Assembly: GCF_003367475.1 (NCBI RefSeq)
Contig: NZ_QRHA01000004.1
Span: forward strand, 248,001 to 312,000
Source of the DNA: Alteromonas aestuariivivens
GTDB taxonomy: Bacteria > Pseudomonadota > Gammaproteobacteria > Enterobacterales > Alteromonadaceae
Reading direction: 5' to 3'
DNA: 64,000 nt
The notes under the pieces are model-generated. The model did not search any database. It saw only the letters and a program-made list of their open reading frames with translations, and was not told the DNA's origin. This document shows positions 34,134 to 58,869 of the stretch, in pieces. Each line of letters opens with the position of its first letter. Position 1 is the first letter of the stretch. A program made the translations under genes and the position numbers.

Positions 34134-36665
34134 TTACCGTGGGCAGCTATGCTGCCCCGGTTGTTCGGCCACTAACTGCACATTAGAGATAGTAGCCTTG
34201 CCCGCTTTAGTACTTTCAAGCACGAAAGGCGCAAATATTTCACCAAATCGGGCACCTGCATTAATGAGGCACTGGCTGGGAACCACTACCTGCTGCCACT
34301 CAGACGTAGGTTTGAGATAGTCAGCCAATGGCAGCGTTGCTGCACAGTTTTCACCGCAGGCCATCGAAAGGAACAGCTCACCAGCCGGGTTTTCCAGTTT
34401 GATATCAAACACCAGTGCACCCTGGCTGCCCGCGAAGTTAAGCAAATCTTCAGGGAATGCGGCCATAAAGCCAACCTGGGTTCCGCCGCTTAGCCACTGT
34501 ATTTCCAGGCTGTCTTCCTGAACTTCCCGGTCGGTAGTGCGAACCTGTACTGATTCTGTCTGCAATACGTTGCTGTTCATTACCGACGGCGACTGACCAT
34601 CCATGACGGCAAAACTCCAGGGCTTCTGGGTAGTCAGCACGTAAACTGGATGGCTGTCAGGTGCGGTGTTTGCGTCTGTCACATAGGTTTCGGGAAGTGC
34701 TGAACTTAATGGGTCTGCCTCACCGAAACTCAGCCCATAACCCAAAGGAAACAAAGGCGTTTTACCATCCCCAGCGTTTATTGGATTCTGGTTGGGGTCC
34801 GCGGGCCAGGAAAAAGACAGTTTGCCGGTTAGCGGATGTTTGATTTGGCCGCTTTCATCGGTAAACAGCACATCGGCCACGCCCTCGCCCTCTGAGCCAG
34901 GCAACCAGGCAACCACAAACGCATCACTGGCGTTAAGTTCCGCATTGACCCACAACGGGCGCCCGGTCAAGAACACCGACACCACGGGAATGCCCGCCTG
35001 CTGCAAGCGCTGCAGCAGTGCCAGGTCCGTTTTCTGACCGCGCTGGAATTCCACATTCGCGAGGTCACCATTGCCCTCGGCGTATGGGTCTTCGCCGTAT
35101 ACCACAATCGCTACATCCGGTTTTTCGCTGAACTGACCGTCTTTGGACAATACGGCCTGCCCGCCTGCAGCCTCGACAACCTTGCTGATTCCATCGAAAA
35201 TGGAAGTGCCGCCGGGAAAATCGCTGTTTTCGTTGCCGGTACCCTGCCAGGTCACACTCCATCCGCCGGATTGTTTACCAATATTGTGTGCACCGTCTCC
35301 CGCTACCAGTACTTTTGCAGAGGGCGAAAGCGGCAGTAAGCCTTGTTTATTTTTCAGCATCACCAGTGATTTACGCACGGCTTCACGGGCAATTTCACGA
35401 TGCTCGGGAGCCCCGATGAGGTAGGTTTTGCCCGACAGCCTGCGAGCTTTAGGTGACGGCGCGTCCAGCAACCCTGCCCGAACCTTGACCCGCAATACCC
35501 TGCGCACGGCATCATCGAGACGGTCAAGTGAGATCACACCCTCTTCAACCTGTGCAACCAGATTGTGAAACAAGGGTTTCCAGGCAGAAGTGGGCACCAT
35601 GTACACATCCAGACCAGCGTTAATAGCCTGGGGGCAGTTGTCATTGGTGCACCCCTCTATCTGCCCGTGCCCGTTCCAGTCTCCGACGACGAAACCGTCA
35701 AAGCCCATTTTGTCTTTCAGCACGGAAGTAAGCAGGTACTTACTTCCATGAATTTTATTGCCTTGCCAACTGTTGAACGATGCCATCACTGACTGAGCAC
35801 CGGCATTCAGCCCTTCCACATACCCTTGAGCATGAATACGGAACAGGGTTTCCTCTTCAGCAATGTTATTGCCCTGATCATCGCCGCCTTCCGTTCCGCC
35901 ATCGCCCAGGAAGTGCTTTACCGTTGAGATAACATGGCCGTCATCAATGGCACCTGATCGGATGTCCCCCTGCAGGCCTGACACAATGGCTCTGGCGTAC
36001 TGACCAACCACAGCCGGATCTTCCGAATAGCTTTCGTAGGTTCGGCCCCAGCGGTCATCCCTGGCAACCGCGACAGTGGGGGCAAATATCCAGTCGATGC
36101 CGGTGGCTCTGACTTCTTTTGCTGTGGCTTCGGCAATGCGTTTGATCAACTCCGGGTCACGGGCTGCGCCAAGGCCAATATTGTGCGGAAACAGGGTCGC
36201 ACCAATTACATTATTGTGGCCATGCACTGCGTCGGTACCCCACATGGTTGGGATACGGCTGCCATCAACAGAATCGTCGACGGAAGCCTGATAGAGCGCT
36301 TCGGCCAGGTCAACCCAGTCCTGAACGGTGGCATGCTTGTCGTTATTCGGAAAAGCACCGCCACCATTCAGGTAGGAGCCAAAGCCGTATTCGCGCATAT
36401 CTTCAACGGTAATATCACGTATTTCCGGCTGGATCACCTGAGCCACTTTCTGCTTCAGTGTCATTTCAGACAACAAAGCTTCTACCCGGGCTTCCACCCG
36501 CTCATGATTAGCCGTGGTGAAACTGACTGCTGGCCAATAATCGGCGGCAACGTCTTCTTTCAGAGGGACAGTTTCGGTGGATGTGGAGGAAGTCTGATTA
36601 CAGGCCGTCAGAGCAGTGAGAGCAAGAAATCCCGCTGAGAGTGCGCGCCAGGAACGAAGGGTCAT
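34134..36665 (-). CDS. GH3 beta-glucosidase / exo-glucan glucohydrolase lipoprotein
   Basis: Glycoside hydrolase family 3 enzyme of 843 residues with a lipoprotein signal (LTALTAC, Cys about residue 22). The N-terminal barrel (about 60-390) has KHFLGDGGT and the nucleophile Asp at about 329 in GFVVGDWNGHGQ. The second domain (about 425-640) contains VLVAGDGAHNIGKQSGGW. A C-terminal beta domain (about 690-835) resembles the galactose-binding-like module of ExoP-type enzymes. It releases glucose from beta-glucans or cello/laminari-oligosaccharides in the periplasm or at the cell surface. A LacI-type operator overlaps its predicted promoter, and it is divergent from the TonB-dependent receptor gene. 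Confidence 0.93.
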   Translation of the reverse strand: MTLRSWRALSAGFLALTALTACNQTSSTSTETVPLKEDVAADYWPAVSFTTANHERVEARVEALLSEMTLKQKVAQVIQPEIRDITVEDMREYGFGSYLNGGGAFPNNDKHATVQDWVDLAEALYQASVDDSVDGSRIPTMWGTDAVHGHNNVIGATLFPHNIGLGAARDPELIKRIAEATAKEVRATGIDWIFAPTVAVARDDRWGRTYESYSEDPAVVGQYARAIVSGLQGDIRSGAIDDGHVISTVKHFLGDGGTEGGDDQGNNIAEEETLFRIHAQGYVEGLNAGAQSVMASFNSWQGNKIHGSKYLLTSVLKDKMGFDGFVVGDWNGHGQIEGCTNDNCPQAINAGLDVYMVPTSAWKPLFHNLVAQVEEGVISLDRLDDAVRRVLRVKVRAGLLDAPSPKARRLSGKTYLIGAPEHREIAREAVRKSLVMLKNKQGLLPLSPSAKVLVAGDGAHNIGKQSGGWSVTWQGTGNENSDFPGGTSIFDGISKVVEAAGGQAVLSKDGQFSEKPDVAIVVYGEDPYAEGNGDLANVEFQRGQKTDLALLQRLQQAGIPVVSVFLTGRPLWVNAELNASDAFVVAWLPGSEGEGVADVLFTDESGQIKHPLTGKLSFSWPADPNQNPINAGDGKTPLFPLGYGLSFGEADPLSSALPETYVTDANTAPDSHPVYVLTTQKPWSFAVMDGQSPSVMNSNVLQTESVQVRTTDREVQEDSLEIQWLSGGTQVGFMAAFPEDLLNFAGSQGALVFDIKLENPAGELFLSMACGENCAATLPLADYLKPTSEWQQVVVPSQCLINAGARFGEIFAPFVLESTKAGKATISNVQLVAEQPGQHSCPR

Positions 36666-36884: not shown

Positions 36885-36912
36885 AGTATAGGAGTGCCGC
36901 CGAAAAATGCAA
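36885..36912 (-). promoter_or_regulatory. Predicted sigma-70 promoter of the GH3 gene
   Basis: On the minus strand, TTGCAT (36912-36907), a 16-bp spacer and TATACT (36890-36885). The -35 box lies inside the LacI-type operator at 36908-36921, so a bound repressor would block it. Confidence 0.55.
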
Positions 36913-36921
36913 GCGCTTACA
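36908..36921. promoter_or_regulatory. LacI-family operator, GH3 side
   Basis: TGCAAGCGCTTACA, differing at one position from the three exact copies elsewhere in the window. It lies 243 bp upstream of the GH3 start and overlaps the -35 box. Confidence 0.75.
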
Positions 36922-37186: not shown

Positions 37187-37231
37187 TGAAAGCGCTTACA
37201 ACTCGCTTGCCCGCTATTGTAAGCGCTTTCA
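37187..37231. promoter_or_regulatory. Paired LacI-family operators before the receptor gene
   Basis: TGAAAGCGCTTACA (37187-37200) and its exact reverse complement TGTAAGCGCTTTCA (37218-37231). Their centres are 31 bp apart, about three helical turns, so two dimers would sit on the same face. The first also equals the operator before the GH1 gene at 49303. The remaining 36922-37154 is AT-rich with no gene. Confidence 0.82.
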
Positions 37232-37363: not shown

Positions 37364-40339
37364 ATGATAACCAAATCTTTCAACAAATCCCGTATAGCGA
37401 CCAGTGTGTCGCTGATAATGGGTGCTGTAGCGACTATGCCAGGATTGGCACAGGAAGCCAGTGACCAGGCACAACTCGCCAATACCGACTTCGAGGTCAT
37501 TGAAGTCAGCGGCATTCGAGAGAGTCTGACCAAGTCCATGCTCACCAAACGTGCCGCTTCAGGTGTGGTGGACGCCATTTCAGCCGAAGACATTGGCAAG
37601 TTTCCAGACACCAACCTGGCCGAATCCCTGCAACGGATCACCGGGGTGTCGATTGATCGGGTGAATGGTGAAGGCAGCCGGATTACCGTTCGGGGCTTTG
37701 GACCTGACTATAACCTGGTCACCCTGAATGGCCGCCAGATGCCCACCGCATCCATTGATGCCACCACAGCTTCTGGCTCACGGTCTTTTGACTTTGGCAA
37801 CCTGGCCTCAGAAGGGGTGGCAGCAGTCGAAGTGTACAAAACCAGCCTGGCTTCCCAGCCTACCGGCGGCATCGGTTCTACTGTTAACCTGGTTACTGCC
37901 AAACCGTTAAGCAACCCCGGCATCAAGGCCTCTTTTGCCGCCAAGGCCGTCAGTGATCAATCCACCGAAGAAGGCAACAAGATCACCCCGGAGTTGTCTG
38001 GCATCTACAGCCAGACCTTTGCCGACGATACCTTTGGCATTCAGCTAATTGGTTCCTATCAGGAGCGTGACAGTGGCTCTGCCAGCGCTGAAACCGGCAA
38101 TGGCTGGTACACTATCCAAGGCACCCAGGGCGATTGGGGGTCCCTGCCGCAGGACGGCAGTTTTGTGAATCCACCGCAGGAAAACGACGTTTACTCCGTA
38201 CCCCGTAACCTGGCTTACAACTTTAACGAGTTTCGCCGTACCCGCACCAATGGCCAGTTAACCCTGCAGTACCGCCCGGTTGACGAATTTACCGCCACCC
38301 TGGATTACACTTATTCCGAGCTGGAAAATCAGACTCTGCGTCAGCAAATTTCAACCTGGTTTAACGGAAACCCGGCCTACGGTGAGTACACTCAGGGTAC
38401 CAATACGCAAGGCTCAGTGATTGGCCCGGTTATTTATGCGGATTCAACCTGTTGTGATATCGGCCTGGGTACCAGTGATTTTACCCGCGTAAATGAAAAC
38501 AATTCCGTTGGCCTGAACCTGGAGTGGCTGGTTAACGATAATCTGTTGTTAGAGCTGGATTATCATCACTCCACCGCAGAAGCGGGCCCGGGTAACAATC
38601 TGGGCAGCGACAATGTTATTAGTGGCGTGCAATTTGACCGGGTAGTGACAGAGGTGGATTACAGTCGGGATTTCCCGGTTATGGACATTATGTACGCCGA
38701 TGGTGTGACGGGCCTGGATCCGGCCCGCATGCTGACTTCCGGTACCGCATTCCGCAACAGCTTTATGCGCTCTGAAATTGACCAGTTCCAGTTTCGCGGC
38801 AATTACACTTTTGACGATGGCATCATCACCAGCATCGATTTTGGCCTTGCCAGCATCGAGGTGAAAAACCGCTCGGCATACTCCAATGCCCAGCGTGATA
38901 CTTGGGGCGGATACGGCTCACCTGATGATTACCCGGATGATATTTTCATACAGAAAAGCGTTGCTGACCGTTTTGATGATATGCCGGGGGCTGGCTCTGC
39001 CAATCTGGAGCCGTTTTACTACGCCACCAGTATGCAGGATTTCCTGAGCGTGATTTCGCAAATTGCCACCGCCAACGGTGATACTTTGGGACCTTGCGGC
39101 ACCGAACTGTGCATGGACCCGAACTTCACCACCGACCGTCGTACCACAGAAGAACAATGGTCTGCTTACGTTCAGGTGAATATGTCATTTGATATTGGCG
39201 ATATGCCGGCCAACCTGGCAGTCGGAGCGCGTTATGAAGACACCACAGTTGATTCCAGTGCCAAAGTGCCTGAATACGAAACCATTGCCTGGACCGGCGA
39301 CAATGAGTTCAGCGCCGTTCCCACCGGAAACGACCAGTTTACCTCGCTTTCCGGGGGCTACGATCATTTCCTGCCTTCGGTAGACTTCAATATTGAGGTG
39401 ATGGAAGACCTGATTCTGCGCGCGTCTTACAGTGAAACCATTTCCCGCCCTAATTACGCTGACATTCAGGGGGGCTTAACCATTAATCAACTGGCCCGCT
39501 TCAATGGGGGATCAGGCAGTGCCGGTAATCCGAATCTGCTGCCGTTCGAATCGACCAACATCGATTTCTCTGCCGAGTACTATTACGGTGATGGCAGTTA
39601 CGTTTCGGCAGGTTACTTCGATAAGAGCGTGGACAACTTTATTGGTAACGATACCTACACCGATACGGTGTTTGATTTGGCGACTCCCTTTGGAGGGCCA
39701 CGTTATCAGGCTGCCGTTGCCGCGTTGGGTGAAGGCGCCACTACCACGGCTATTCGGGAGTATATTATTGCCCAGGGCGTTGGCGTTGATGGTAACAACA
39801 TACTGGGTATACCAGGTGAAGACCCTATCCTGGAGTACACCATTACCCAACCGGTGAACTCTGACAGCCGAGCGGTGGATGGTCTGGAAATGGCCTGGCA
39901 GCATCTGTTCGGCGATTCCGGTTTTGGTTTTATCGTTAATTACACGGCGGTTGACGGCGATGTGAAATACGATGACTACAACACCAACAAAGGTGAAAAC
40001 CCCAACCAGTTTGTATTGTTGGGCCTGAGTGATACTGCCAACGCCGTGTTGTTCTACGATAAAGACGACTGGGAAGTGCGTATTGCCTACAACTGGCGGG
40101 ACAAATTCCTCGATGCCACCATCGATGGTAACGGCGAACGTAACCCCACCTACATAGAAGATTACAGCCAGATCGATGTAAACATCAGTTACGACATCAA
40201 CGAACATCTGGTGGTCTTTGCCGAGGGCATTAACGTTACCAACGAATACAAACGCTCCCACAGTCGTCATCCAAACATGCTGATTGGCGTGTATGACGCC
40301 GAGCCTCGTTATCAGGTAGGGCTTCGTTACACCTTCTAG
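37364..40339 (+). CDS. TonB-dependent receptor (TIGR01782 type)
   Basis: Outer-membrane ligand-gated importer of 991 residues. A signal peptide (about 1-28, ending GLAQ) is followed by the plug domain (about 45-165) with the TonB-box-like EVIEVSGIRESL, FPDTNLAESLQRITGVSI and RITVRGFGPDYNLVTLNGRQ. A 22-strand-type barrel runs to the C-terminal aromatic ending YQVGLRYTF. The plug text is characteristic of the Xanthomonas/Caulobacter-type receptors for plant or algal glycans. It is divergent from the GH3 lipoprotein and under the paired LacI-type operators, so a beta-glucan oligosaccharide is a likely ligand. A terminator follows, then the halogenase operon. Confidence 0.95.
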   Translation: MITKSFNKSRIATSVSLIMGAVATMPGLAQEASDQAQLANTDFEVIEVSGIRESLTKSMLTKRAASGVVDAISAEDIGKFPDTNLAESLQRITGVSIDRVNGEGSRITVRGFGPDYNLVTLNGRQMPTASIDATTASGSRSFDFGNLASEGVAAVEVYKTSLASQPTGGIGSTVNLVTAKPLSNPGIKASFAAKAVSDQSTEEGNKITPELSGIYSQTFADDTFGIQLIGSYQERDSGSASAETGNGWYTIQGTQGDWGSLPQDGSFVNPPQENDVYSVPRNLAYNFNEFRRTRTNGQLTLQYRPVDEFTATLDYTYSELENQTLRQQISTWFNGNPAYGEYTQGTNTQGSVIGPVIYADSTCCDIGLGTSDFTRVNENNSVGLNLEWLVNDNLLLELDYHHSTAEAGPGNNLGSDNVISGVQFDRVVTEVDYSRDFPVMDIMYADGVTGLDPARMLTSGTAFRNSFMRSEIDQFQFRGNYTFDDGIITSIDFGLASIEVKNRSAYSNAQRDTWGGYGSPDDYPDDIFIQKSVADRFDDMPGAGSANLEPFYYATSMQDFLSVISQIATANGDTLGPCGTELCMDPNFTTDRRTTEEQWSAYVQVNMSFDIGDMPANLAVGARYEDTTVDSSAKVPEYETIAWTGDNEFSAVPTGNDQFTSLSGGYDHFLPSVDFNIEVMEDLILRASYSETISRPNYADIQGGLTINQLARFNGGSGSAGNPNLLPFESTNIDFSAEYYYGDGSYVSAGYFDKSVDNFIGNDTYTDTVFDLATPFGGPRYQAAVAALGEGATTTAIREYIIAQGVGVDGNNILGIPGEDPILEYTITQPVNSDSRAVDGLEMAWQHLFGDSGFGFIVNYTAVDGDVKYDDYNTNKGENPNQFVLLGLSDTANAVLFYDKDDWEVRIAYNWRDKFLDATIDGNGERNPTYIEDYSQIDVNISYDINEHLVVFAEGINVTNEYKRSHSRHPNMLIGVYDAEPRYQVGLRYTF

Positions 40340-40364
40340 GAACAAGCACTCATTGTGTGGTGTT

Positions 40365-40396
40365 CGCCGCTGCCATGACCGGCAGCGGCGCTTTTT
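40365..40396 (+). terminator. Intrinsic terminator after the receptor gene
   Basis: CGCCGCTGCC (40365-40374) pairs with GGCAGCGGCG (40381-40390), a 10-bp stem with a 6-nt loop, followed by C and five T. It should end most receptor transcripts before the halogenase genes. Confidence 0.85.
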
Positions 40397-40399
40397 CCT

Positions 40400-40430
40400 T
40401 TGACACTATGAAATGCAAGCCATTTACACT
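40400..40430 (+). promoter_or_regulatory. Possible promoter of the halogenase operon
   Basis: A consensus TTGACA (40400-40405), then TTTACA after 17 bp or TACACT after 19 bp. The spacer holds TGCAAGC and TTTACA, which look like the arms of the LacI-type operator with a disturbed centre; I do not call it an operator. The operon begins 57 bp on. Confidence 0.4.
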
Positions 40431-40486
40431 AAATTAACAAAATCGAACCACACCGTAATCTCGCGCCTGAGTCTGGAGAAAACATA

Positions 40487-42061
40487 ATGTCTGTAACTGC
40501 CGCTCAATCGGTTCGCTCTATCGTCATCCTCGGCGGAGGTGCCGCCGGGTGGCTCACTGCGGGTATTCTGGCGGCAGAGCACAACCTGCCTGATAACCCG
40601 AACCTTACGATTACCGTTGTGGAGTCTCCTGATATCAGCATACTGGGAGTAGGCGAGGGCACCTGGCCTACCATGCGCGACACGCTCAGAAAACTCGGGC
40701 TGAATGAAAAAACCTTTTTGAAGCGTTGTGATGCCAGCTTCAAGCAGGGCACTTGCTTCAACGGCTGGGTAAATGGTCAGCCCGGTGACCGGTACTATCA
40801 CCCCTTCAGTTTGCCTGCCGGTTTTTTCGATACGGACCTGTTTGCCTGGTGGCAATTACACCGGCCTGCGCAGCCTTTCGCGGCGCTATTCAGCACCCAA
40901 ACCCAATTATGCGAACAGCACAAAGCGCCGAAACAACCCCAAACACCCGATTTTGCCGCCGTGGCCAATTATGGCTACCACCTCGATGCAAATAAATTTG
41001 CCGAAATGTTGCGCGAGCATTGCCTGACCCAGCTGGGTGTCGGGCACATTCTGGACCACTGTGATGAGGTGCTCACGGACAACGAAGGCTACATTACTGC
41101 TTTATCAGGAAGACAACAGGGCCAAATTGCAGCGGATCTATTTGTGGACTGCAGCGGCTTTGCAGCCCGCCTTATCGGCCAGCACTATGGTGAAATACTG
41201 ACACCCGTTGGCCACACTCTGATGAATGACACCGCCGTTGCTGTACAGGCTCCCTACAAGGATGAGCACACGCCCATTGCCTCGGCAACCCATTCCACCG
41301 CCGATGAAGCTGGCTGGATATGGGACATTGGTTTGCAGCACCGAAAAGGGGTAGGGTACGTTTTCAGCAGTGCATTCTGTAGCGAGCAAGAGGCTAAACA
41401 ACGGCTACTTAATTACCTTGCCAACGATTCAAGCACCTCGCGTGTAAGCGAAGAACAAATCCGTACCATTCAGTTCACGCCCGGGTATCGAAAGCATCTC
41501 TGGGTTAAAAACTGCGTGGCAATTGGTACCTCCGCAGGATTCATAGAGCCGCTGGAGGCCTCTGCACTGGTCATGATCGAACTTTCAGCCACCATGCTAG
41601 CCAGACAACTTCCGTTAACCCAGCCTGCGATGCACGGTGCAGCGAGGCATTTCAACACGGTATTTTCCCAGCGCTGGCAGCGTATTGTAGACTTTTTAAA
41701 ACTGCACTATGTCCTCAGCCAGCGGCGCGATACGCCTTACTGGCGGGCCATGACAGACCAGGCAGCGTGTTCGGAGCAGCTTGCCGACTGGCTGCAGCAG
41801 TGGGCTACCCGATCTCCGTCGCTAAGCGATTTCATGTTCAGTGAAGAAATTTTCCCCCATGCCAGCTATCTGTACATATTGTGCGGCATGGGGTTTCCGT
41901 CCGATATCGATCCCATGCGGTATACACCTTACAAAATGGCGGATGTCAGCAAAATTATCGAAAAAAATCAGCAGCTGACACGTCAGCACCTGCAGGGTCT
42001 GCCGGCCAACCGTGAGTTGCTGCAGTCGACCTTCGGGCTCATTGTCAATCACGCCAGTTAA
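40487..42061 (+). CDS. Flavin-dependent tryptophan-halogenase family protein (1)
   Basis: FADH2-dependent halogenase-type protein of 524 residues. Seen: the Rossmann FAD loop VILGGGAAGWLTAGIL (about 13-28), the VGEGTWPT motif (about 60-67) and the Lys in DASFKQG (Lys about 86) that aligns with the catalytic Lys79 of PrnA/RebH. The halogenase signature WxWxIP appears here as WIWDIG, lacking the proline. Later text SAGFIEPLEASALVMIEL is typical of the family. It is the first of four linked genes: halogenase, SapC, cupin, halogenase. Relatives next to TonB-dependent receptors are known, but natural substrates are not. Halogenation activity is an inference, and the altered signature leaves it open. 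Confidence 0.87.
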   Translation: MSVTAAQSVRSIVILGGGAAGWLTAGILAAEHNLPDNPNLTITVVESPDISILGVGEGTWPTMRDTLRKLGLNEKTFLKRCDASFKQGTCFNGWVNGQPGDRYYHPFSLPAGFFDTDLFAWWQLHRPAQPFAALFSTQTQLCEQHKAPKQPQTPDFAAVANYGYHLDANKFAEMLREHCLTQLGVGHILDHCDEVLTDNEGYITALSGRQQGQIAADLFVDCSGFAARLIGQHYGEILTPVGHTLMNDTAVAVQAPYKDEHTPIASATHSTADEAGWIWDIGLQHRKGVGYVFSSAFCSEQEAKQRLLNYLANDSSTSRVSEEQIRTIQFTPGYRKHLWVKNCVAIGTSAGFIEPLEASALVMIELSATMLARQLPLTQPAMHGAARHFNTVFSQRWQRIVDFLKLHYVLSQRRDTPYWRAMTDQAACSEQLADWLQQWATRSPSLSDFMFSEEIFPHASYLYILCGMGFPSDIDPMRYTPYKMADVSKIIEKNQQLTRQHLQGLPANRELLQSTFGLIVNHAS

Positions 42062-42073
42062 TCAGGAGTCAGA

Positions 42074-42787
42074 ATGGCCAAACATGCTTTACTCAATAAT
42101 GTCGAGCACAAGGATCTGAAAATCGCCACGCACCACAGTGAATCGTTTGGCGACAACATGATGTGTGTGCCCCTGTTTCCCGTTGAAGTACGTCATGCCC
42201 AGGCGCATTACCCGATACTGTTTGTGCGCGACGGAGAAGGTCAGTTTCAGATGGTAGCCCTGCTGGGTTTTGAACAGCACGAAAATCTATTTTTGCGCGA
42301 CCAGCAATGGCAGGCTGCGTATAAGCCCCTGCTAATTGAGAAAGGCCCCTTTTTGATTGGCCGCAACCCTCAGGCAGGCAATGCTACACTGTCCATCCAC
42401 ATAGATTTGGATGATCCCCGGGTGAATACGGAACAGGGAGAAGCCCTTTTCCTGCCCCATGGTGGAAACAGTGACTACATTGAAAACATTGCCAATGTAC
42501 TCAGTACCATACATCAGAGCCAAAGCGAACTGCGCCAGTTCATCAGCGTGCTGGAGCGACTGGAGCTGATTGAGTCCTTCGTGGTGGACATTGAGCTTGA
42601 CGGCCAGGGTACCCATCGCCTGTCTGGATTTTTCACCCTCAACGAAGACAAAATCAAGGCACTGGACGCCGAGACGCTCGGGCGCCTGCATCAGGATGGC
42701 TACCTGGAACTGGTGTATATGATTGTAGCTTCGATGTCACAACTGCGGGCGCTGGTTGAACGCAAGAAGGCCCGTATGGCGGTTTGA
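42074..42787 (+). CDS. SapC family protein (1)
   Basis: Soluble protein of 237 residues with the features of the SapC family: VPLFPVEVRHAQAHYPILF, VALLGFEQHENLFL, IEKGPFLIGRN and a C-terminal helical part with RLSGFFTLNEDKI and LVYMIVASMSQLRALVERK. The name comes from a Campylobacter surface-layer gene, but the molecular function is unknown. It starts 12 bp after the halogenase gene with TCAGGAG before the ATG. A second, diverged copy lies at 61161. Confidence 0.9.
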   Translation: MAKHALLNNVEHKDLKIATHHSESFGDNMMCVPLFPVEVRHAQAHYPILFVRDGEGQFQMVALLGFEQHENLFLRDQQWQAAYKPLLIEKGPFLIGRNPQAGNATLSIHIDLDDPRVNTEQGEALFLPHGGNSDYIENIANVLSTIHQSQSELRQFISVLERLELIESFVVDIELDGQGTHRLSGFFTLNEDKIKALDAETLGRLHQDGYLELVYMIVASMSQLRALVERKKARMAV

Positions 42788-42800
42788 GCTGAACGAGAGT

Positions 42801-43802
42801 ATGCCTCAGTTTCCTGAAATCAAACCGGATACACCAGCTGGGTTAACCCAGCTTCTGGAATCCTGGACAACGCCCACCTTCCTTCCGCAACTTGTGGGTG
42901 AGTGGCCGCTGGTCAAAGCCGCTCGCCAGTCCGATCAGGCGTTGGTTGACTATTTGCTGGGGTTTGATAAGGGCATCAGCGTGGACTGCCTGAGATTACC
43001 GCATGCCGAACAGGGCCGGGTGTTTTACAATTCAACCTTCGATGGCTTCAATTTTGAACGCCAAAGGCTGCCGTTTCAAACGGCCTTGCAGCAATTGCTG
43101 ACCTTAAGGCAGACACCCGAACCCGAATCCCTGTATGTAGGCAGCACAAGCGTAGAGCGCTGTTTGCCGGGAATGCTTCAGCAAAACCCCATGCCACTGG
43201 ATGCCCTGAATCCGCTTGCCACTCTATGGATTGGCAATAAAAGCCGGATTGCGGCGCATTATGATATGCCCGACAACCTGATCTGCGTGACCGCAGGCAA
43301 ACGTAAAGTCACCTTGTTTCCACCGGATCAGGTCGAAAACCTGTACGTTGGTCCGTTGCATTTCACCCCAGCCGGGCAGGCCATCAGCCTGGTTGATTTG
43401 GCCAACCCTGACTTCGAGCAGTTTCCCCGATTCAGACTGGCTCTGGAAGCCGCCATGGTTTTCGAGCTGACGCCGGGTGACGCCTTGTATATCCCCTCTA
43501 TGTGGTGGCATCACATTGAAGGGCAGGAGAGCATCAACATGCTGGTCAATTACTGGTGGCAGTCTCAAACCCCGGTAACAGGGAGAGCGGAAAACGCCCT
43601 TTATCATACCCTGCTGGCCTTGGGCGGGCTGCCGGATGAACAAAGGCAGGCCTGGAAAGCCCTTTTTGATCACTATGTTTTCGGGCAGGACCCGGAGCGT
43701 TTTGCACACATACCACCATCGCAGCGCGGCCCGTTGGAGGCCCCCGATGAAGCAACGTTAAGACAATTTAAAGCCATGCTTGCCAACAGTCTGCGACAGT
43801 AA
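42801..43802 (+). CDS. Cupin-like JmjC-type Fe(II)/2-oxoglutarate oxygenase
   Basis: Protein of 333 residues from the ATG 42801; the frame opens with a TTG at 42756, inside the SapC gene, which is less likely. The cupin_8/JmjC-type core has an iron triad: His and Asp in AAHYDMPDNLICV (about 152-156) and the later His in YIPSMWWHHIEG. GKRKVTLFPPDQ follows the first ligands. Such enzymes hydroxylate protein or peptide side chains. It is placed between SapC and the second halogenase; its stop overlaps the frame of the latter. Confidence 0.88.
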   Translation: MPQFPEIKPDTPAGLTQLLESWTTPTFLPQLVGEWPLVKAARQSDQALVDYLLGFDKGISVDCLRLPHAEQGRVFYNSTFDGFNFERQRLPFQTALQQLLTLRQTPEPESLYVGSTSVERCLPGMLQQNPMPLDALNPLATLWIGNKSRIAAHYDMPDNLICVTAGKRKVTLFPPDQVENLYVGPLHFTPAGQAISLVDLANPDFEQFPRFRLALEAAMVFELTPGDALYIPSMWWHHIEGQESINMLVNYWWQSQTPVTGRAENALYHTLLALGGLPDEQRQAWKALFDHYVFGQDPERFAHIPPSQRGPLEAPDEATLRQFKAMLANSLRQ

Positions 43803-43825
43803 TGGCAACAGGTCAGGAGCAACAC

Positions 43826-45301
43826 ATGCAAGAACAGCACAAACAAAAAGTGGTGATTGCGGGAGGTGGTACCGCTGGCTGGATGGCCGCCGCCGCACTG
43901 GCCAGAACCATCGGCAAAACCCTGGACATCACGTTAATTGAGAGCAGTGATATTGGCACCGTTGGGGTTGGCGAGGCAACCATTCCCACGCTGGTGTTTT
44001 TTCACAAACTGCTCAAGGTCAGTGAACAGGAGTTCATGGCCGCCACCCACGCCACTTTCAAGCTCGGTATTCAATTTGAAAACTGGCGCGATGTGGGTGA
44101 GGACTATCTGCATGCATTCGGAGTTACCGGCAAAGACTGCTGGGCCGCAGGGTTTCAGCACTTTTGGCTCAAAGGGCTTGAAAAGGGTTTTAGCCAGGGT
44201 TTTGGCGATTACTGTCTGGAACGGGTGGCCGCCGAAGCCGGGAAATTCGCCCACCTGCCCAACAATGGCCTGAACTACGCCTACCACATTGACGCCAGCA
44301 AATACGCCCAATTTCTCAGGCAACTTTCAGAAAAAGAAGGCGTGAAGCGCATTGACGCCAAAATCCAGCACGTAAACACCCGTGCGAAAGACGGCTTCAT
44401 TGACCACCTGGTGCTGGACAACGGTGAAAAGATAGCCGGCGATATGTTTCTCGATTGCACCGGGTTTCGCGGCCTGCTGATAGAGCAGGCCCTGCACACC
44501 GGCTATGAAGACTGGTCTCACTGGTTACCCTGCGACAGTGCGGTGGCGGTACAAACCGAAGCCACCGGCAGCCCGGCCCCTTTTACCCGCAGCATAGCCC
44601 ACGAATCCGGCTGGCAATGGCGCATACCATTGCAGCACCGGGTCGGAAACGGCCTGGTGTACTGCAGCCGCTACCTCAAAGATGAAGACGCTGTCACCCG
44701 CCTGCTCGACAGAATTGATGGGCAACCACTCAATGACCCCAAGGTGATTCACTTCAGAACCGGGCGCCGGCTTAAACAGTGGAACAAAAACTGTGTGGCA
44801 CTCGGCCTCGCCAGTGGCTTTCTCGAACCTCTTGAATCCACCAGCATACATTTAATTCAGCAGGGAATTGTGCGCCTGCTGAGAATGTTCCCCGGCCGTG
44901 AAATTCAGCAGACCGATATCGACGAGTACAATCGCCAGAGTGATTTTGACATTGAACACATTCGCGACTTCATCATTTTGCATTACCACGTGACACAACG
45001 GGATGATTCCCCCTTCTGGCGCCACTGCCGCCAGATGCAGGTACCGAAATCACTGGCACACCGAATCGAACTGTTCCGCCAAACCGGCCGGGTATTCCGC
45101 GAAGGCAGCGAACTGTTCGACGATTCCTGGCAGCAGGTGATGATTGGCCAGGGGTTGATGCCCAAAACCTACCACCCGATCGTGGATGCCATGTCAGACC
45201 AGGAACTGCAACAGTTCCTCAGCCAGATCCTGAACAACATCCGGCGTACCGTAGAGCGACTCCCCAGCCACGAGCAATACCTGAGGCAATATTGCAGTTG
45301 A
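43826..45301 (+). CDS. Flavin-dependent tryptophan-halogenase family protein (2)
   Basis: 491 residues from the ATG at 43826, which has AGGAG six bases before it; an ATG at 43802 overlaps the cupin stop. With this start the catalytic-type lysine in ATFKLGIQF falls at residue 79, as in PrnA and RebH. The FAD loop VVIAGGGTAGWMAAAAL, the VGEATIPT motif and an intact WxWxIP signature (SGWQWRIPLQHR) are all present. It is therefore the better candidate of the pair for an active halogenase. Whether it acts on free tryptophan, another indole or a peptide is unknown. Confidence 0.93.
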   Translation: MQEQHKQKVVIAGGGTAGWMAAAALARTIGKTLDITLIESSDIGTVGVGEATIPTLVFFHKLLKVSEQEFMAATHATFKLGIQFENWRDVGEDYLHAFGVTGKDCWAAGFQHFWLKGLEKGFSQGFGDYCLERVAAEAGKFAHLPNNGLNYAYHIDASKYAQFLRQLSEKEGVKRIDAKIQHVNTRAKDGFIDHLVLDNGEKIAGDMFLDCTGFRGLLIEQALHTGYEDWSHWLPCDSAVAVQTEATGSPAPFTRSIAHESGWQWRIPLQHRVGNGLVYCSRYLKDEDAVTRLLDRIDGQPLNDPKVIHFRTGRRLKQWNKNCVALGLASGFLEPLESTSIHLIQQGIVRLLRMFPGREIQQTDIDEYNRQSDFDIEHIRDFIILHYHVTQRDDSPFWRHCRQMQVPKSLAHRIELFRQTGRVFREGSELFDDSWQQVMIGQGLMPKTYHPIVDAMSDQELQQFLSQILNNIRRTVERLPSHEQYLRQYCS

Positions 45302-48400: not shown

Positions 48401-48994
48401 ACTTTCGCACAAGGCCAAGAAAACTTTGTTGTTTTCTGGATTGGAGTAAATCTTGTTTTTTTGAAGCAGGATGGTAACCAATTTATTTTGTTTAGAAACA
48501 AGGAACTACCAAACGCAGAAAAGCTTGCTGATAGGCACGATTATGAAGGTTTAATGGGAGTACTTAGTAACGATAAGGAAACCAAAGTTCATTTGCTACA
48601 AGAAAGCACAAGTAGTAATCCCAGCACCTTTGATTGGGTTGGCTATGACTTTAATGCAGACTCTTTTCAAACCTCACATACAGATACTAGGTTCGACGTA
48701 GCCCATACCTATTGTGTATCAACTGATGAAATGCAATCCAGACTGGTGGCATATATGGTCACTAAAGAGATAGCTATTGAGAAAGTTGAAGAGACTGGTT
48801 GGACTCCTGAGCAGGCTAAAGTTGTAGCGATAGATATGAGTAGTGGTGAACTAGTTTGGGCCTCAAAGCAACTGAAGTATGATAGGAGGTTTGGTTCTTC
48901 AAGGGGATCTGTGGGGTGCAATCAATTGCCCGAGGAGTTACAACTGGTGTTCTCAACTAGCAGAAACTTATATAAAACAGGTCAGGGCAATTGA
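45458..48994 (+). CDS. AT-rich lipoprotein with PKD-like and FG-GAP-like repeats
   Basis: Large surface-type lipoprotein of 1178 residues with a lipobox in LFAVSCGGG (Cys about 21). After an acidic linker and a beta-rich part lies a PKD-like domain (about 305-400, with LDASQSKDTDGDILHFDWKV and YRLSLTVSDGEL). The C-terminal two thirds hold propeller-like repeats, among them FGDFNEDGTPDIV, a degenerate FG-GAP/VCBS motif. Its codons are clearly more AT-rich than the genes on both sides, and it separates the halogenase genes from the GH1 operon, which suggests recent acquisition. The function is unknown; binding or adhesion is likely. Confidence 0.75.
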   Translation: MSIWVKQLFLVIVALFAVSCGGGNVGESSLGNTDKDKENSEDLPTSYLFKLYNGKKNQATVSHTNSHDMAFHITTISDLAVALVYSNELPYARFDSVLESDQPIPSEDCESGEIVTGEVTEDTISFEFVQCTSGNYALNGKGSLKALNFNDIGEISVGVLQFDDLTVSNSRNNYRFKGDILIAFGPETVNEANFEALIENIDTGEQYYIDFLKLELGLPSQNGEFSATGKIFLSQYGYVLLDTVQKATEAKNLTISVSGSNTLVVENSHENKLGIALFSNTSSITSARTYVPYTAIINKEYLNQKNTAPTAHVLNSNNLIDKNQELTLDASQSKDTDGDILHFDWKVLSQPEGAKVTFSNHGFVNSSTYFDTAGDYRLSLTVSDGELTSVPVYADVHVRQNPPKAHFKEGSQQIEFGTPMENVVTIESPVDDGPFEISINSGPVSMMINEVGLLSWNGKVPRFGYDMDINYSVKVKNRDHEIIVKNTLTLIDSKTDALFNIDTLPNEVIGVFDWNDDQELDLLVRRGDKFHILSSQTQEVLWEQNLPNSTISHGVYKNNTETLYFIDRSKLDVYSIKKNQSEFTHIATLDEWKRDSFGTFMFEIDHQPKHGVFNIFTDKFKYDAINKIRTPYPDSAIKFGDFNEDGTPDIVSFSGIYNGDTMEPLDTMELISEANILNSRDLNIFNADQYSDDEIIFIDFNYATDNPGYRIRILDLTPNGLTQVHIQPINISSDTFSYVISEDGSDLYILENQNQISIYKRYGNQNFQYISTQEIEDFNYIKPVSTSYSKSSCWLVRSFDQKLILECRSYLVDQPDQYVTNYSLLDLTLDKLVLDTIIDTTDYSTSDLGSPLRISENQFAFGQKNGVMEIYEDNSITKKSAHPLAIAEGIEFYNISYEAGVYYSWEERNRRLIKTAIDSGVTIENNQLGDFEYKFFDIGNDSYVLLLSGKTVTILIKENLQEVSSFTFYNLDYRPDLLQVATFAQGQENFVVFWIGVNLVFLKQDGNQFILFRNKELPNAEKLADRHDYEGLMGVLSNDKETKVHLLQESTSSNPSTFDWVGYDFNADSFQTSHTDTRFDVAHTYCVSTDEMQSRLVAYMVTKEIAIEKVEETGWTPEQAKVVAIDMSSGELVWASKQLKYDRRFGSSRGSVGCNQLPEELQLVFSTSRNLYKTGQGN

Positions 48995-49201: not shown

Positions 49202-49215
49202 TGAAAGCGCTTACA
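49202..49215. promoter_or_regulatory. LacI-family operator before the first GH1 operon
   Basis: TGAAAGCGCTTACA, identical to the first operator before the receptor gene. It lies 88 bp upstream of the GH1 start codon. Confidence 0.8.
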
Positions 49216-49302: not shown

Positions 49303-50646
49303 GTGACAAAACTGTTTACTCTGCCACAAACCCTGTTTGCTGACCCGGATTTCACCATTGGTGTAGCCACCTCATCCTTTCAGATTGAGGGCGGTGCTGA
49401 CACACGGGAACCTTGCATCTGGGACAGCTTTTGCCAGCAGCCAGGAAAAATACTCGACGGCAGCAACGGCTTGGTTGCCTGCGACCATGTTCACCGCTGG
49501 GCAGAAGATATTGAAATGATTGCTTCACTGAATGTGGATGCCTATCGTTTTTCCATTTCCTGGCCACGAATCATCAAAGCCGATGGTAGCGTCAATCAGC
49601 AGGGCCTGGATTTCTATCTCAACATACTCGTGGCACTTAAGGCTCGCGGCATCAAGGCCTATGTAACACTTTATCACTGGGATTTGCCTCAATACCTGGA
49701 GGATGAGGGCGGCTGGCTAAACCGCCAGACAGCGTACGCATTTGCATACTTTGCCGAAGTGGTTGTAAGAGCGTTTGGCGATTTGGTGTATTCCTGGGCA
49801 ACCCTCAACGAACCTTTTTGCAGTGCCTATCTCGGGTATGAAGTTGGCATCCATGCGCCAGGCAAAGTGGGCAAACAGTTCGGTAAAAAGGCCATTCACC
49901 ACCTTTTACTCGCCCACGGGCTGGGCATGCAGAAGCTTAGGGAATTTGCACCCCAGGCACAGTCAGGGATCGTACTCAATTTTACGCCTTTCTATCCGGC
50001 TTCCAATTCATCCAAAGATCTGGCCGCGACCCAATTGGCGCACGATCATTTCAACGACTGGTACATCCGCCCCCTGCTCAAAGGCGAATACCCTGCCCTG
50101 ATTGACTTACTGCCTGAGAACCACAGGCCACATATTGAAGACGGTGACATGGATATCATCGCCCAGAGCATTGACTTCCTGGGGGTGAACTACTACACCC
50201 GGGCCATTGTGACAGACGACGGCAGCGACGACCCACTCCAGCTCCCTCCTGCGCCCGATTGCGAAACCACCGCTATGGGTTGGGAAGTGTTCCCCCAGGG
50301 GCTAACGGACCTGTTGCTCCAACTGCATCGCGATTATGCGCTTCCTCCCATTATCATTACTGAAAACGGGCTGGCCAGTGATGATGAAATGCATAATGGT
50401 GAAGCGGTCGACACCCAGCGCATTCGGTATTTGCAAACCCATATGGATGCGGTAGCCAGCGCTGCACAGCAAGGCGTTAAAATAACCGGCTATTTTGTCT
50501 GGAGCCTGATGGACAACTTTGAATGGGCATTAGGCTATGCGAAACGCTTTGGTATCGTGTATGTTGATTACAGCACACAGCAGCGAACATTAAAGTCCAG
50601 TGCCAAGGCACTGGCTGAGATGTTAGCCAATCGAAAACCATTGTAA
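49303..50646 (+). CDS. GH1 beta-glucosidase (1)
   Basis: Cytoplasmic family 1 glycoside hydrolase of 447 residues; no signal peptide. The acid/base Glu is at about residue 170 (TLNEPFC) and the nucleophile Glu at about 354 (IITENG). IEGGADTREPCIWDSFC, YHWDLPQYLEDEGGW and the C-terminal SLMDNFEWALGYAKRFG are family landmarks. It cleaves beta-linked glucose from disaccharides and short oligosaccharides. The start is a GTG with GAGGA nine bases before it. First gene of a GH1, GPH symporter, LacI operon, under a LacI-type operator. Confidence 0.95.
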   Translation: MTKLFTLPQTLFADPDFTIGVATSSFQIEGGADTREPCIWDSFCQQPGKILDGSNGLVACDHVHRWAEDIEMIASLNVDAYRFSISWPRIIKADGSVNQQGLDFYLNILVALKARGIKAYVTLYHWDLPQYLEDEGGWLNRQTAYAFAYFAEVVVRAFGDLVYSWATLNEPFCSAYLGYEVGIHAPGKVGKQFGKKAIHHLLLAHGLGMQKLREFAPQAQSGIVLNFTPFYPASNSSKDLAATQLAHDHFNDWYIRPLLKGEYPALIDLLPENHRPHIEDGDMDIIAQSIDFLGVNYYTRAIVTDDGSDDPLQLPPAPDCETTAMGWEVFPQGLTDLLLQLHRDYALPPIIITENGLASDDEMHNGEAVDTQRIRYLQTHMDAVASAAQQGVKITGYFVWSLMDNFEWALGYAKRFGIVYVDYSTQQRTLKSSAKALAEMLANRKPL

Positions 50647-50663: not shown

Positions 50664-51992
50664 ATGCTGAGCAAATCTGAAAAAGTTGCATACGGGCTGG
50701 GCGATACCGCCAGTAATTTTATCTTTCAGACCGTAATGCTGTTTCTGACCTTTTACTACACCGACATCGTCGGGCTGGCTCCCGCTGCCGTTGGCAGCAT
50801 GTTCCTGATTGTCAGAGTGTTTGATGCGGTCACCGACCCGCTGATGGGCGCACTGGCCGATCGCACCCGCACCCGTTGGGGTTCTTACCGGCCTTATCTG
50901 CTCTGGCTGGCGCTGCCTTTCGCGATTTGCAGCGTATTGGCGTTCACCTCACCAGAGCTTACTGAGCAGGGCCGCTACCTGTATGCATTTGCGACCTACG
51001 CCCTGCTTATGCTGATGTACACCGCCATAAACATACCCTACTCCGCACTGGGCGGCGTAATGAGTAACGACCCCAACGAAAGGGTGTCAATTCAGTCCTA
51101 TCGCTTTGTATTTGCCATGTTTGGTGGCTTATTGGTCACCTCTTTTACACTGCCGCTGGTTGACTGGTTTGGAAACGGCAACCAGGCATTAGGCTATCAG
51201 CGCACTATGATGGCCATGAGTCTGGTCGGCATGATACTGTTTTTGCTCTGTTTTGCCGGTACCCGCGAACGCCTCAAGCCTGCCAGCGACATCAGCCTGG
51301 GCCTGAAAGGGCAACTCAAATCTCTGTGGGACAATGACCAGTGCAGAGTTTTATGCGCAGTCGCTGTGGTTCTGCTCACCGGAATGGTACTGCGCAATAC
51401 GCTGGCGATTTATTACGTTAAATATGTTCTGCAGCGCCCGGACGATGTCACCCTGTTTGTAACTACCGGCATGGTTGGCAATATTATTGGTTGCGCACTC
51501 GCCGCCCCCATAGCCCGCCGATTGTGCAAAGTCAGGGTATACACATCACTGCAAGTGATCAGCGCAGCGATCTGTTTGACCAATTATCTGCTTCCCGCCG
51601 ATGCCTGGTTTGCATCACTGGCACTGCATTTCCTGTGGGGGTTGTTTCTGCAGATGGCCACTCCACTGCTGTGGGCGAAAATTGCCGATGTTGTGGATTA
51701 CGGAGAAGCAAAAACCGGCGTGCGTATGGCCGGCGTCACCTATTCAACGGTGGTATTTTTCATCAAGGTCGGGCTGGCTCTGGGCGGTGCCACGGCAGGC
51801 TGGCTGTTAGCCTTTTACGGTTACGAGGCTAACACCTACAGCGCCAATGTCGCCAAAGGCATCACGCTGTCTTTCTGTGTATACCCTGCTGTCGCATCAA
51901 TAATCGTTGCCCTTCTGATGCACTGGTATAGACTAGACGGTCGCACTTTACAGACGATTCAGAAACAGTTGGCCTCGCTCAGGCAGAGCTAG
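50664..51992 (+). CDS. GPH-family sugar:cation symporter (1)
   Basis: Inner-membrane symporter of 442 residues with about twelve helices. It belongs to the glycoside-pentoside-hexuronide family: KVAYGLGDTASNFIFQTV at the N terminus, FDAVTDPLMGALADRTRTRWG (the family signature), and PLLWAKIADVVDYGEAKTGVR in the second half. It probably brings in cellobiose- or laminaribiose-like beta-glucosides for the GH1 enzyme encoded 17 bp upstream. Confidence 0.94.
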   Translation: MLSKSEKVAYGLGDTASNFIFQTVMLFLTFYYTDIVGLAPAAVGSMFLIVRVFDAVTDPLMGALADRTRTRWGSYRPYLLWLALPFAICSVLAFTSPELTEQGRYLYAFATYALLMLMYTAINIPYSALGGVMSNDPNERVSIQSYRFVFAMFGGLLVTSFTLPLVDWFGNGNQALGYQRTMMAMSLVGMILFLLCFAGTRERLKPASDISLGLKGQLKSLWDNDQCRVLCAVAVVLLTGMVLRNTLAIYYVKYVLQRPDDVTLFVTTGMVGNIIGCALAAPIARRLCKVRVYTSLQVISAAICLTNYLLPADAWFASLALHFLWGLFLQMATPLLWAKIADVVDYGEAKTGVRMAGVTYSTVVFFIKVGLALGGATAGWLLAFYGYEANTYSANVAKGITLSFCVYPAVASIIVALLMHWYRLDGRTLQTIQKQLASLRQS

Positions 51993-52048
51993 GGCCATTG
52001 CACCGGATGTTTGAAAAAGCCACCGATGTGCAAAAGGAAAACAGCAAT

Positions 52049-53047
52049 ATGGTCACAATCAAGCAAGTCAGTGAGCGGGCAGGGGTCTCTTCCGCAACCG
52101 TATCGCGGGTCATCAATAATGCTGACAGCGTCAAAGAAAACACCCGAAAACTTGTAATGGATGCCATGGCCGACCTCGGCTATCGGCACAATGTACTGGC
52201 CGCATCCCTGGCATCCAACAAAACCAACACCGTGGGGTACGTGGTTCCTGAGTTGCATGGCTCTTTTTTCGGCAGCATGATGGCTGGCTCCGAACAGGTA
52301 TTGCGTAAAGCGAACAAACACATGTTCGTTGCCACCGGTCACTCAGACGAATCGACTGAAAAGAAGGAAATTGAAGCGCTGCTGAGCAGACGCTGCGACG
52401 CGCTTATCCTGCACGTAGAAGCGGTAAGCGACGACTACCTGATTAACCTTGCCAGACAGGATGTCCCCCTGGTAGTAGTAAACCGTTATATTGAGGAAAT
52501 CGGTGAACATTGCATCAGCCTCGATAATATTCGTGGCGGTTATCTGGCTACCCGCCACCTGATTGAACTCGGCCATACCTCCATCGCATACGTGGCAGGA
52601 GCCATGTTCAAAGCGGACAGTGTCAACCGGCTGGAAGGGCATAAACAGGCACTTGCTGAAGCTGGACTACAGTACAACGAATCGCTGACCGTTGAAGGTA
52701 ACTTCCAGGCCAAATCGGGTGAAGATGCCATCCGGGAACTGGCCCGTCGCGACTGCTACTATACTGCGGTTGCCTGCGCCAACGATGAGATGGCCTGCGG
52801 TGCCATCAATGCACTCGCTACCATGGGCAGAAGCGTTCCCAGAGACGTCTCGGTAATTGGTTACGATAATATTGATTTTGCCAGCTATCTGACTCCAGGG
52901 CTAACCACCATTAATTACCCGGTACGCGACATTGGCACCATGGCGGCCCGATGGATCCTAAACCACGCTTACGGCGATCACAAAATGACCATGTCCCATG
53001 TGCTGGAGCCACATCTGGTGGTTAGAGGAACCACCAAACGCAACTGA
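52049..53047 (+). CDS. LacI-family transcriptional regulator (1)
   Basis: Repressor-type regulator of 332 residues. The start at 52049 (VTIKQVSERAGVSSATVSR) puts the HTH at the extreme N terminus as is usual; the frame itself opens at 51998. AAGGA lies ten bases before the ATG. HTH and hinge helix occupy residues about 2-55, the periplasmic-binding-like effector domain the rest. It closes the GH1-GPH operon and is a clear paralogue of the regulator at 56153. It probably binds the AAGCGCTT operators of this region, with a beta-glucoside or glucose-type effector. Confidence 0.94.
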   Translation: MVTIKQVSERAGVSSATVSRVINNADSVKENTRKLVMDAMADLGYRHNVLAASLASNKTNTVGYVVPELHGSFFGSMMAGSEQVLRKANKHMFVATGHSDESTEKKEIEALLSRRCDALILHVEAVSDDYLINLARQDVPLVVVNRYIEEIGEHCISLDNIRGGYLATRHLIELGHTSIAYVAGAMFKADSVNRLEGHKQALAEAGLQYNESLTVEGNFQAKSGEDAIRELARRDCYYTAVACANDEMACGAINALATMGRSVPRDVSVIGYDNIDFASYLTPGLTTINYPVRDIGTMAARWILNHAYGDHKMTMSHVLEPHLVVRGTTKRN

Positions 53048-57157: not shown

Positions 57158-57218
57158 AAATAACCTCTTCGTCACTGAACCGCCGGGCTGGGACGTCCAG
57201 TCTGCATATATCCTGTGT

Positions 57219-58748: not shown

Positions 58749-58869
58749 TGCAGTGGCTTCCTTTTCAAACTCTACCGGGTACGCGACGTCCATCGTGCGA
58801 TAGCAGAGCTGGCCAGTGTCAGGCAGCCAACTCCGGGCGGTTTGGATGAAACCACCGGATACACGTAAA

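Follow-up and report, generated by a model that had tools for sequence, protein, structure and literature searches.

A conserved set of halogenase-type flavoproteins, SapC and a cupin tied to TonB-dependent receptors, in a beta-glucoside regulon of Alteromonas aestuariivivens

Flavin-dependent halogenases of the Xcc4156 and BrvH type act in vitro on indole and its derivatives, and not on free tryptophan (PMC7336383, PMC5945002). Activity of BrvH on indole is low, and its authors doubt that indole is the natural substrate (PMC5945002). In the available text of the two reports, the native substrates of both enzymes are given as unknown, outright or by implication (PMC7336383, PMC5945002), and a peptide substrate has been suggested for the pair (PMC7336383). 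The beta-glucoside (Bgl) regulon of Shewanella, as described in the accessible part of its report, comprises bglA-bglT-bglR, the TonB-dependent receptor gene ompBgl, a further periplasmic glucosidase and predicted BglR sites (PMC2996990). We analysed a stretch of 64,000 nucleotides from Alteromonas aestuariivivens (contig NZ_QRHA01000004.1, positions 248,001 to 312,000), referred to here as the window, in which five genes at 37364–45301, all on the + strand, encode a TonB-dependent receptor, a flavoprotein (Hal1), a SapC protein, a Cupin_8 protein and a second flavoprotein (Hal2) within a locus of the Bgl kind. The enzyme genes form a conserved unit tied to receptors of the TIGR01782 family, a putative receptor-coupled oxidative tailoring operon, and the observation is more general than the window alone could show.

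The genes were assigned by scanning the window with Pfam and TIGR profiles. The receptor gene (37364..40339, +) matched TIGR01782 with 652.9 bits against a cut-off of 310 and encodes plug and barrel domains; its AlphaFold2 model (pLDDT 84) agrees with known structures of TonB-dependent receptors. It is followed on the same strand by Hal1 (40487..42061), a PF04820 flavoprotein of the WxWxIG class (380 bits) with 2PYX as its closest solved relative, and by SapC (42074..42787; PF07277, 231.9 bits over a gathering cut-off of 28.9). Next come an FIH-like cupin of the Fe(II) 2-oxoglutarate oxygenase type (42801..43802; PF13621, 220 bits) and Hal2 (43802..45301; 652.6 bits), of the PF04820 flavin-dependent halogenase type and WxWxIP class, whose closest solved relative is 6Y1W (Xcc4156). 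The open reading frame (ORF) of the cupin starts with a TTG at 42756, and since the sole ATG in its first 38 codons is at 42801, the likelier gene is 42801–43802; with this start, the four enzyme genes are spaced by 13 nt or less. The best named relative of the cupin (70% identity) is from A. salexigens, and Alteromonas species lead among the matches listed. The original prediction, made from the letters of the window, had named the receptor, halogenase, SapC, cupin and halogenase together with a GH3 gene and LacI-type operators, and all of these are present, the five genes on one strand. Its placing of the set in a beta-glucoside regulon agrees with the gene order and operators described below, and its statement that halogenase and SapC genes recur beside TIGR01782 receptors is borne out by the surveys that follow, in which the linkage reaches beyond close relatives.

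Receptor and enzyme genes as a conserved unit

Eleven genomes were compared, comprising the window's own, five of the genus, three of the family, one of the class and one of the phylum. Of their 100 PF04820 genes, 90 have one of 150 listed TIGR01782 receptors at a distance of 7 kb or less, against 6.5 expected randomly, and 86 of these 90 are downstream of the receptor on the same strand. Seen from the receptor side, 63 of the 150 have a halogenase within 7 kb. Among 299 Pseudomonadota genomes, PF04820 (at 1e-60) was found in 55 and TIGR01782 (at 1e-90) in 68, with 46 containing both (Fisher p 3e-28, in a test that ignores relatedness); the top 3 to 5 candidates were scored per genome, which gives presence and not copy numbers. 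Copies of PF04820 reached 17 in one genome (G219) and 16 in another (G336).

A cupin profile, whose source sequences came from clusters of this kind, retrieved at least 581 relatives from named genomes, and the best 80 loci were examined, five of them from closely related Xanthomonas and 10 shorter than 15 kb. The order receptor>Hal1>SapC>Cupin>Hal2 was present in 52 of these loci, 13 of which add DUF6445 behind Hal2, and another 11 showed receptor>SapC>Cupin>Hal2 with no Hal1. This gives a total of 63 ordered loci among the best 80, the other 17 being otherwise arranged or cut off. The ordered loci span Gamma-, Beta- and Alphaproteobacteria, and include Alteromonas, Shewanella, Colwellia, Massilia and Duganella, as well as Xanthomonas and Pseudokordiimonas, in which Hal1 is missing; Cellvibrio has the cupin and not the full gene order.

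One hundred SapC-centred loci were also hand-chosen from two match lists (80 and 20), with some near contig ends omitted. A halogenase was present in 44 of them, and 3 had a receptor or DUF6445 and nothing else of these families. Among the recurring neighbours within 5 kb, the receptor was seen in 45 loci, halogenase in 42, cupin in 25, DUF6445 in 12, LacI in 10 and GH3 in 8; two further neighbour clusters, of 10 and 8 loci, go with SapC genes that stand alone. Near halogenase-linked SapC, no other gene in these 100 loci was as recurrent as receptor, halogenase and cupin.

Linkage to a halogenase follows the receptor clades, with 12 changes on the receptor tree where shuffling gives 55. Within single genomes, receptor divergence correlated with that of Hal2 (r 0.48, 55 pairs, 0/500 permutations as high) and of Hal1 (r 0.50, 19 pairs, 32/500 permutations as high). 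Across all loci, the correlation of receptor and enzyme distances was r 0.70 to 0.87.

The 147-nt gap between receptor and Hal1 in the window contains a terminator-like hairpin (40365..40390, +) of 10 bp, G+C-rich and followed by T5. Such hairpins were found after the receptor in 57/80 gaps where Hal1 is next, 19/33 where SapC is next, 11/19 where Hal2 is next, 3/5 where the cupin is next and 1/5 where another receptor is next; as a control, 160-nt pieces from inside genes were positive in 11/447 cases. None was found in 310 gaps between enzyme genes (0/103 for SapC>Cup, 0/98 for Cup>Hal2, 0/85 for Hal1>SapC and 0/24 for Hal2>DUF6445), gaps that are also shorter, the enzyme genes nearly touching across loci (median gaps 3, 17, 32 and 9 nt) and the receptor-to-Hal1 gap having a median of 138 nt. 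Given the hairpin after the receptor and the nearly touching enzyme genes, we read receptor and enzymes as one operon with a partial terminator, from which much receptor and little enzyme would be made. Hairpins after the receptor and none between the enzyme genes are as expected for an abundant substrate and a sparse enzyme.

Such genes are reportedly mentioned in passing in comparative genomic studies of Xanthomonas and Alteromonadales sugar regulons. In the full-text literature, which covers few subscription journals, no paper was found that connects halogenase, SapC and TonB-dependent receptor into one system, and in the available text of PMC3377617 a tryptophan halogenase and a TonB-dependent receptor are unconnected table entries.

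Elsewhere in the genome of A. aestuariivivens (C32), a cluster at L017 8713-13069 has the order GH9-receptor-halogenase-unknown-halogenase. The 438-aa gene in the middle aligns with PF04820 over part of the profile only (31.8 bits), and could be a partner that has diverged. In a congeneric genome (G025), a Hal1-position halogenase (C1:161176-162560) and a SapC (C1:1378410-1379068) are each split over two frames, which suggests decay of parts of the set.

The predicted enzymes

Halogenase sequences were classed by their better BLAST score to the Hal1 or the Hal2 of the window. The window Hal2 matched 6Y1W (Xcc4156) with 683 bits, and also 9LUQ and 6FRL (BrvH, 498 bits). It carries the GxGxxG motif for flavin adenine dinucleotide (FAD), retains the catalytic Lys aligned with that of BrvH and contains WxWxIP, which is present in 125/133 Hal2-class sequences, and on these features it is predicted to be a flavin-dependent halogenase. 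Hal1 is closest to 2PYX (492 bits), 9LTB (452) and 9LU2 (395). It belongs to PF04820 by its profile score, and its motif in the window is WIWDIG; in its class WxWxIG or WxWxIA was found in 92/97 sequences and IP in 3. The WxWxIP motif is said to keep the enzyme from monooxygenase action (PMC5945002), and Hal1 may be a monooxygenase. The FAD motif GGGxAGW is retained in 126/133 Hal2 and 95/97 Hal1 sequences, and F[VILM]EPLE[SA] in 118/133 and 88/97, respectively. The Hal2 of a Xanthomonas arboricola operon (L149; receptor-SapC-Cupin-Hal2) matched 6Y1W with 1025 bits, and in a Shewanella Bgl operon (L150) Hal1 matched 2PYX over its whole length with 1159 bits, so that operons of this kind contain close relatives of both solved types.

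The HxD...H Fe(II) triad of the cupin (H154, D156 and H238, A1 numbering) is invariant in 16/16 aligned sequences, and the best solved match is FIH (E 1e-21). A Lys of FIH binds 2-oxoglutarate; near that position the cupins have an invariant Arg (R169 of A1, 16/16) and lack the FIH-type Lys.

The structural model of SapC was confident (pLDDT 96, pTM 0.90), and a comparison with the PDB gave no match at E <0.1, the best being 0.14. SapC as an enzyme of known fold was rejected on this basis. The family, to which the window protein belongs by its PF07277 score, takes its name from an S-layer component, and nothing in the operon context pointed to a surface layer. A second SapC gene in the window (61161-61898, within 60451-61898, +) overlaps a 237-aa ORF that has no Pfam match; by eye, it stands beside an Lrp-type regulator and a permease, with no adjoining receptor or halogenase. 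Some lone SapC loci are near genes that by eye resemble two-partner secretion (FHA-like in L048, ShlB-like in L076).

DUF6445 (PF20043) recurs directly after Hal2, for example at L036 6147-6896 and L137 12467-13243. It gave no PDB sequence relative at E 0.1 and has no name beyond its Pfam number; read by eye, it is possibly a 2-oxoglutarate oxygenase.

Candidate substrates of the enzyme set

We tentatively propose, with a confidence that stops somewhat short of even, that the enzymes are a cytoplasmic protein-tailoring set acting, within the Bgl regulon, on the receptor before its export. Beta-glucosides would relieve the LacI repressor, and the partial terminator would lead to much receptor and little enzyme. 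Acting as cytoplasmic catalysts, the enzymes would then modify a protein, most probably the nascent receptor: Hal2 would halogenate an aromatic side chain (bromination being probable by analogy with BrvH), Hal1 would oxygenate an aromatic side chain, the FIH-like cupin would hydroxylate a side chain, and SapC would serve as a substrate-binding partner. A receptor so modified might bind its oligosaccharide better, or escape phages and bacteriocins that use such receptors. The receptor is favoured because it is the shared element, because linkage follows its clades and distances correlate, and because no other gene is as recurrent; we also count in its favour that relatives of the enzymes act on proteins or are suspected to do so (FIH, and the peptide suggestion for BrvH and Xcc4156, PMC7336383). 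Stated more widely, as a widespread cytoplasmic machine of Hal2, a Hal1 monooxygenase, an FIH-like hydroxylase and a SapC adaptor of new fold, often with DUF6445, that would both halogenate and hydroxylate the nascent receptor encoded just upstream, the proposal is one we put forward with considerable doubt.

Enzyme-carrying receptors were found near GH1/GH3, GH36, GH9, GH13, GH20 and agarase-type genes. For this survey 10 neighbours were hand-picked as likely glycosidases, some of them several kb from the receptor; 8 proved to be glycosidases or agarase-type, 1 an FGGY sugar kinase and 1 a peptidase S9. Because the glycan genes near such receptors differ, the receptor and not the glycan is the shared element. 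The original prediction had seen two flavin halogenases and an Fe(II) oxygenase as a tailoring set with three possible targets. The conserved unit and the Fe(II) triad stood, and the term halogenase is doubtful for Hal1 because WxWxIG or WxWxIA replaces WxWxIP in nearly all of its class (92/97). An aromatic group on the imported glycan, the first of those targets, was rejected as a general substrate in view of the varied glycan genes and of receptor and Hal2 lineages that stay together within genomes, and may apply to single loci. The receptor itself emerges as the best of the three options, with no residue found to track the enzymes. A separate gene for a peptide substrate was rejected as well: the receptor-Hal1 gap is short and often contains the hairpin, and among ORFs of at least 80 aa no other small gene recurred in the SapC loci, a rejection that does not extend to short peptides.

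Several results weigh against the receptor as target. We aligned 198 receptors, of which 97 have a cupin and a halogenase, 35 a halogenase only and 66 no halogenase within 7 kb. Among 534 residue-column combinations and 12 independent pairs, none tracked the halogenases consistently, and the best column, with about 4.8 pairs for and 0.3 against, is unconvincing after 534 tests. Trp332/643/911 were present in 99/102 receptors of cupin loci, and also in 4/4 cupin-alone receptors and in 5/77 rows without downstream enzymes, two of which (in L102 and L110) are part of a cluster or adjoin one. Being kept in cupin-alone and enzyme-free receptors, these residues mark a clade and not the halogenase, and they were dropped as modification sites. 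As no receptor residue tracks the halogenases, the receptor as target is unproven; the failed search may indicate that either the target differs between clades, or it sits in loops that align poorly, or the enzymes act on something other than the receptor.

The linkage itself has gaps. No halogenase lies within 7 kb of 87 of the 150 listed receptors, and 10 of the 100 PF04820 genes are not near any of these 150 (at least 150 receptors exist). Nine of the 55 halogenase genomes had no TIGR01782 match at 1e-90 among the top candidates scored, and 53 of the 100 SapC genes stand alone of these families, the 35 loci sampled from outside the class of the window accounting for 32 of them. The lone SapC genes and these nine genomes indicate that the parts can exist apart. 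Operon co-inheritance alone would give distance correlations, so that these are no proof. A flavin reductase was not among the recurring neighbours in SapC loci, no profile search having been aimed at one. The cytoplasmic location was taken from a crude hydropathy check of the first 45 residues, in which the maxima were 1.80 for the receptor, 1.51 for Hal1, 1.37 for Hal2, 0.95 for SapC and 0.72 for the cupin, those of Hal1 and Hal2 falling on the FAD motif.

The enzymes could instead tailor a small aromatic molecule that enters with the glycan or signals it, such as the aglycone of a phenolic glycoside, an indole or a signal, the link to the receptor then being co-regulation. We consider this rather unlikely. 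The in vitro action of Xcc4156 and BrvH on indoles and not on free tryptophan (PMC7336383, PMC5945002) is consistent with it, and the GH1 enzyme and GPH transporter could bring aryl-glucosides inside. However, the low activity of BrvH and its authors' doubt about indole (PMC5945002) argue the other way, as does the wide variety of glycan genes near enzyme-carrying receptors. With up to 17 PF04820 genes, mostly beside a receptor, single genomes hold more of them than a shared small molecule would need, and no exporter or resistance gene was prominent among the recurring neighbours of halogenase-linked SapC.

It is less probable still that the substrate is a protein other than the receptor, exported or cytoplasmic, for example a TonB partner, a glycan-binding lipoprotein or a glycosidase. 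The lack of a receptor residue that tracks the enzymes would agree with such a target, and GH3 genes are near many clusters, but the recurring neighbours in the SapC loci are chiefly receptor, halogenase and cupin, and in three halogenase-only stretches of about 6 kb each (L261, L264 and L265) receptor and halogenase are the sole ORFs >250 aa. A role of the PF04820 proteins and SapC as receptor chaperones or in receptor assembly, with the flavoprotein fold kept and oxidation lost, is highly improbable: the missing WxWxIP proline in at least 92/97 Hal1 sequences and the lack of a known catalytic fold in SapC would suit it, but the FAD and EPLE motifs retained in both classes, the window Hal2 Lys aligned with BrvH, the invariant cupin triad and the in vitro activity of the Hal2 relative Xcc4156 on indole compounds (PMC7336383) do not.

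The beta-glucoside regulon and comparison with described systems

Judged by gene order and operators, the window locus is a Bgl uptake regulon whose sugar part is already known from Shewanella (PMC2996990), which leaves the enzyme part as the question. A bglA-like GH1 beta-glucosidase (49303..50646, +; TIGR03356, 582 bits, cut-off 478), a bglT-like GPH-family sugar transporter (50664..51992, +; TIGR00792, 413 bits, cut-off 231) and a bglR-like LacI-family repressor (51998..53047, +; Pfam scan) follow one another in bglA-bglT-bglR order. Divergent from the receptor is a GH3 beta-glucosidase-type gene (34134..36665, -; Pfam GH3 N and C domains, Exop_C) with its own LacI operator. The LacI/BglR-type operators, all exact matches to TGNAAGCGCTTNCA, are located on the GH3 side (TGCAAGCGCTTACA, 36908..36921), twice upstream of the receptor (37187..37200 and 37218..37231) and upstream of GH1 (49202..49215). 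These four matches compare with 0.01 expected in the window, as many were seen in 0/100 shuffles, and the same four sites are the sole exact matches across the 3.85-Mb genome. The window thus shares with the Shewanella regulon the GH1-GPH-LacI order, the receptor, a further glucosidase and the LacI-type sites, whereas the words halogenase and SapC are absent from the main text, as available, of PMC2996990. In Shewanella loci L136, L150, L151 and L155 the enzyme set does follow the receptor.

Between Hal2 and GH1 lies a 1178-aa PKD/FG-GAP lipoprotein-like gene (45458-48994, +) with about 34–41% GC, against 53–56% in its upstream neighbours, and with no phmmer match at 1e-5 in the other loci compared. 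In L120, GH1 begins about 0.2 kb after Hal2, unlike in the window. The gene looks like a recent insertion. A second GH1-GPH-LacI set (56153-60207, -; named by eye), with AAGCGCTT palindromes at 60158 and 60318, is probably a duplicate of the beta-glucoside unit that lacks receptor and enzymes.

If the receptor is tailored before export, receptors would be matured in a new way, which routine proteomics would overlook because halogenated side chains are seldom included in its searches. Halogenated outer-membrane receptors would then be common yet overlooked in glycan-eating Proteobacteria, and BrvH/Xcc4156-type enzymes would gain a natural substrate. A single conserved receptor operon is here shown to unite Hal2, closely related to the Xcc4156 type, with Hal1, closely related to the 2PYX type; it offers a concrete candidate substrate for BrvH/Xcc4156-type halogenases and narrows the question to one protein. 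Even with another substrate, the operon tells halogenase mining which genes group together, and SapC would be an accessory of the enzyme set with an unmatched fold.

Window Hal2 is close in sequence to Xcc4156 and BrvH and shares their Lys and WxWxIP. These were, however, described as isolated enzymes acting on indoles, and the word TonB is absent from the available text of PMC7336383 and PMC5945002, and likewise from that of a survey of flavin-dependent halogenases (PMC8269204). The closest solved relatives of Hal1 (2PYX, 9LTB and 9LU2) were deposited as tryptophan halogenases; no function paper on them was found in the full-text literature, where 2PYX is named in PMC7336383 and in an article whose title concerns a phasing method, and 9LTB and 9LU2 are named in none. 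The cupin shares the Cupin_8 family and the HxD...H triad with the JmjC oxygenases FIH, JMJD5, JMJD7 and TYW5, and differs from FIH in the Arg near the place of its 2-oxoglutarate Lys. QhpG and LodB/GoxB are flavoproteins that mature a co-encoded protein, and they offer an analogy in the way of working, a superfamily flavoenzyme encoded beside an exported protein. The sequence match of Hal1 to QhpG is, however, weak (45.6 bits to the equivalog NF049967, below its curated score of 240, with 29.5 bits for a Hal1-type paralogue in L014), and places Hal1 outside that family. MibH belongs to a lantibiotic cluster and not to a receptor operon. It is cited in PMC7336383 as a precedent for peptides as halogenase substrates.

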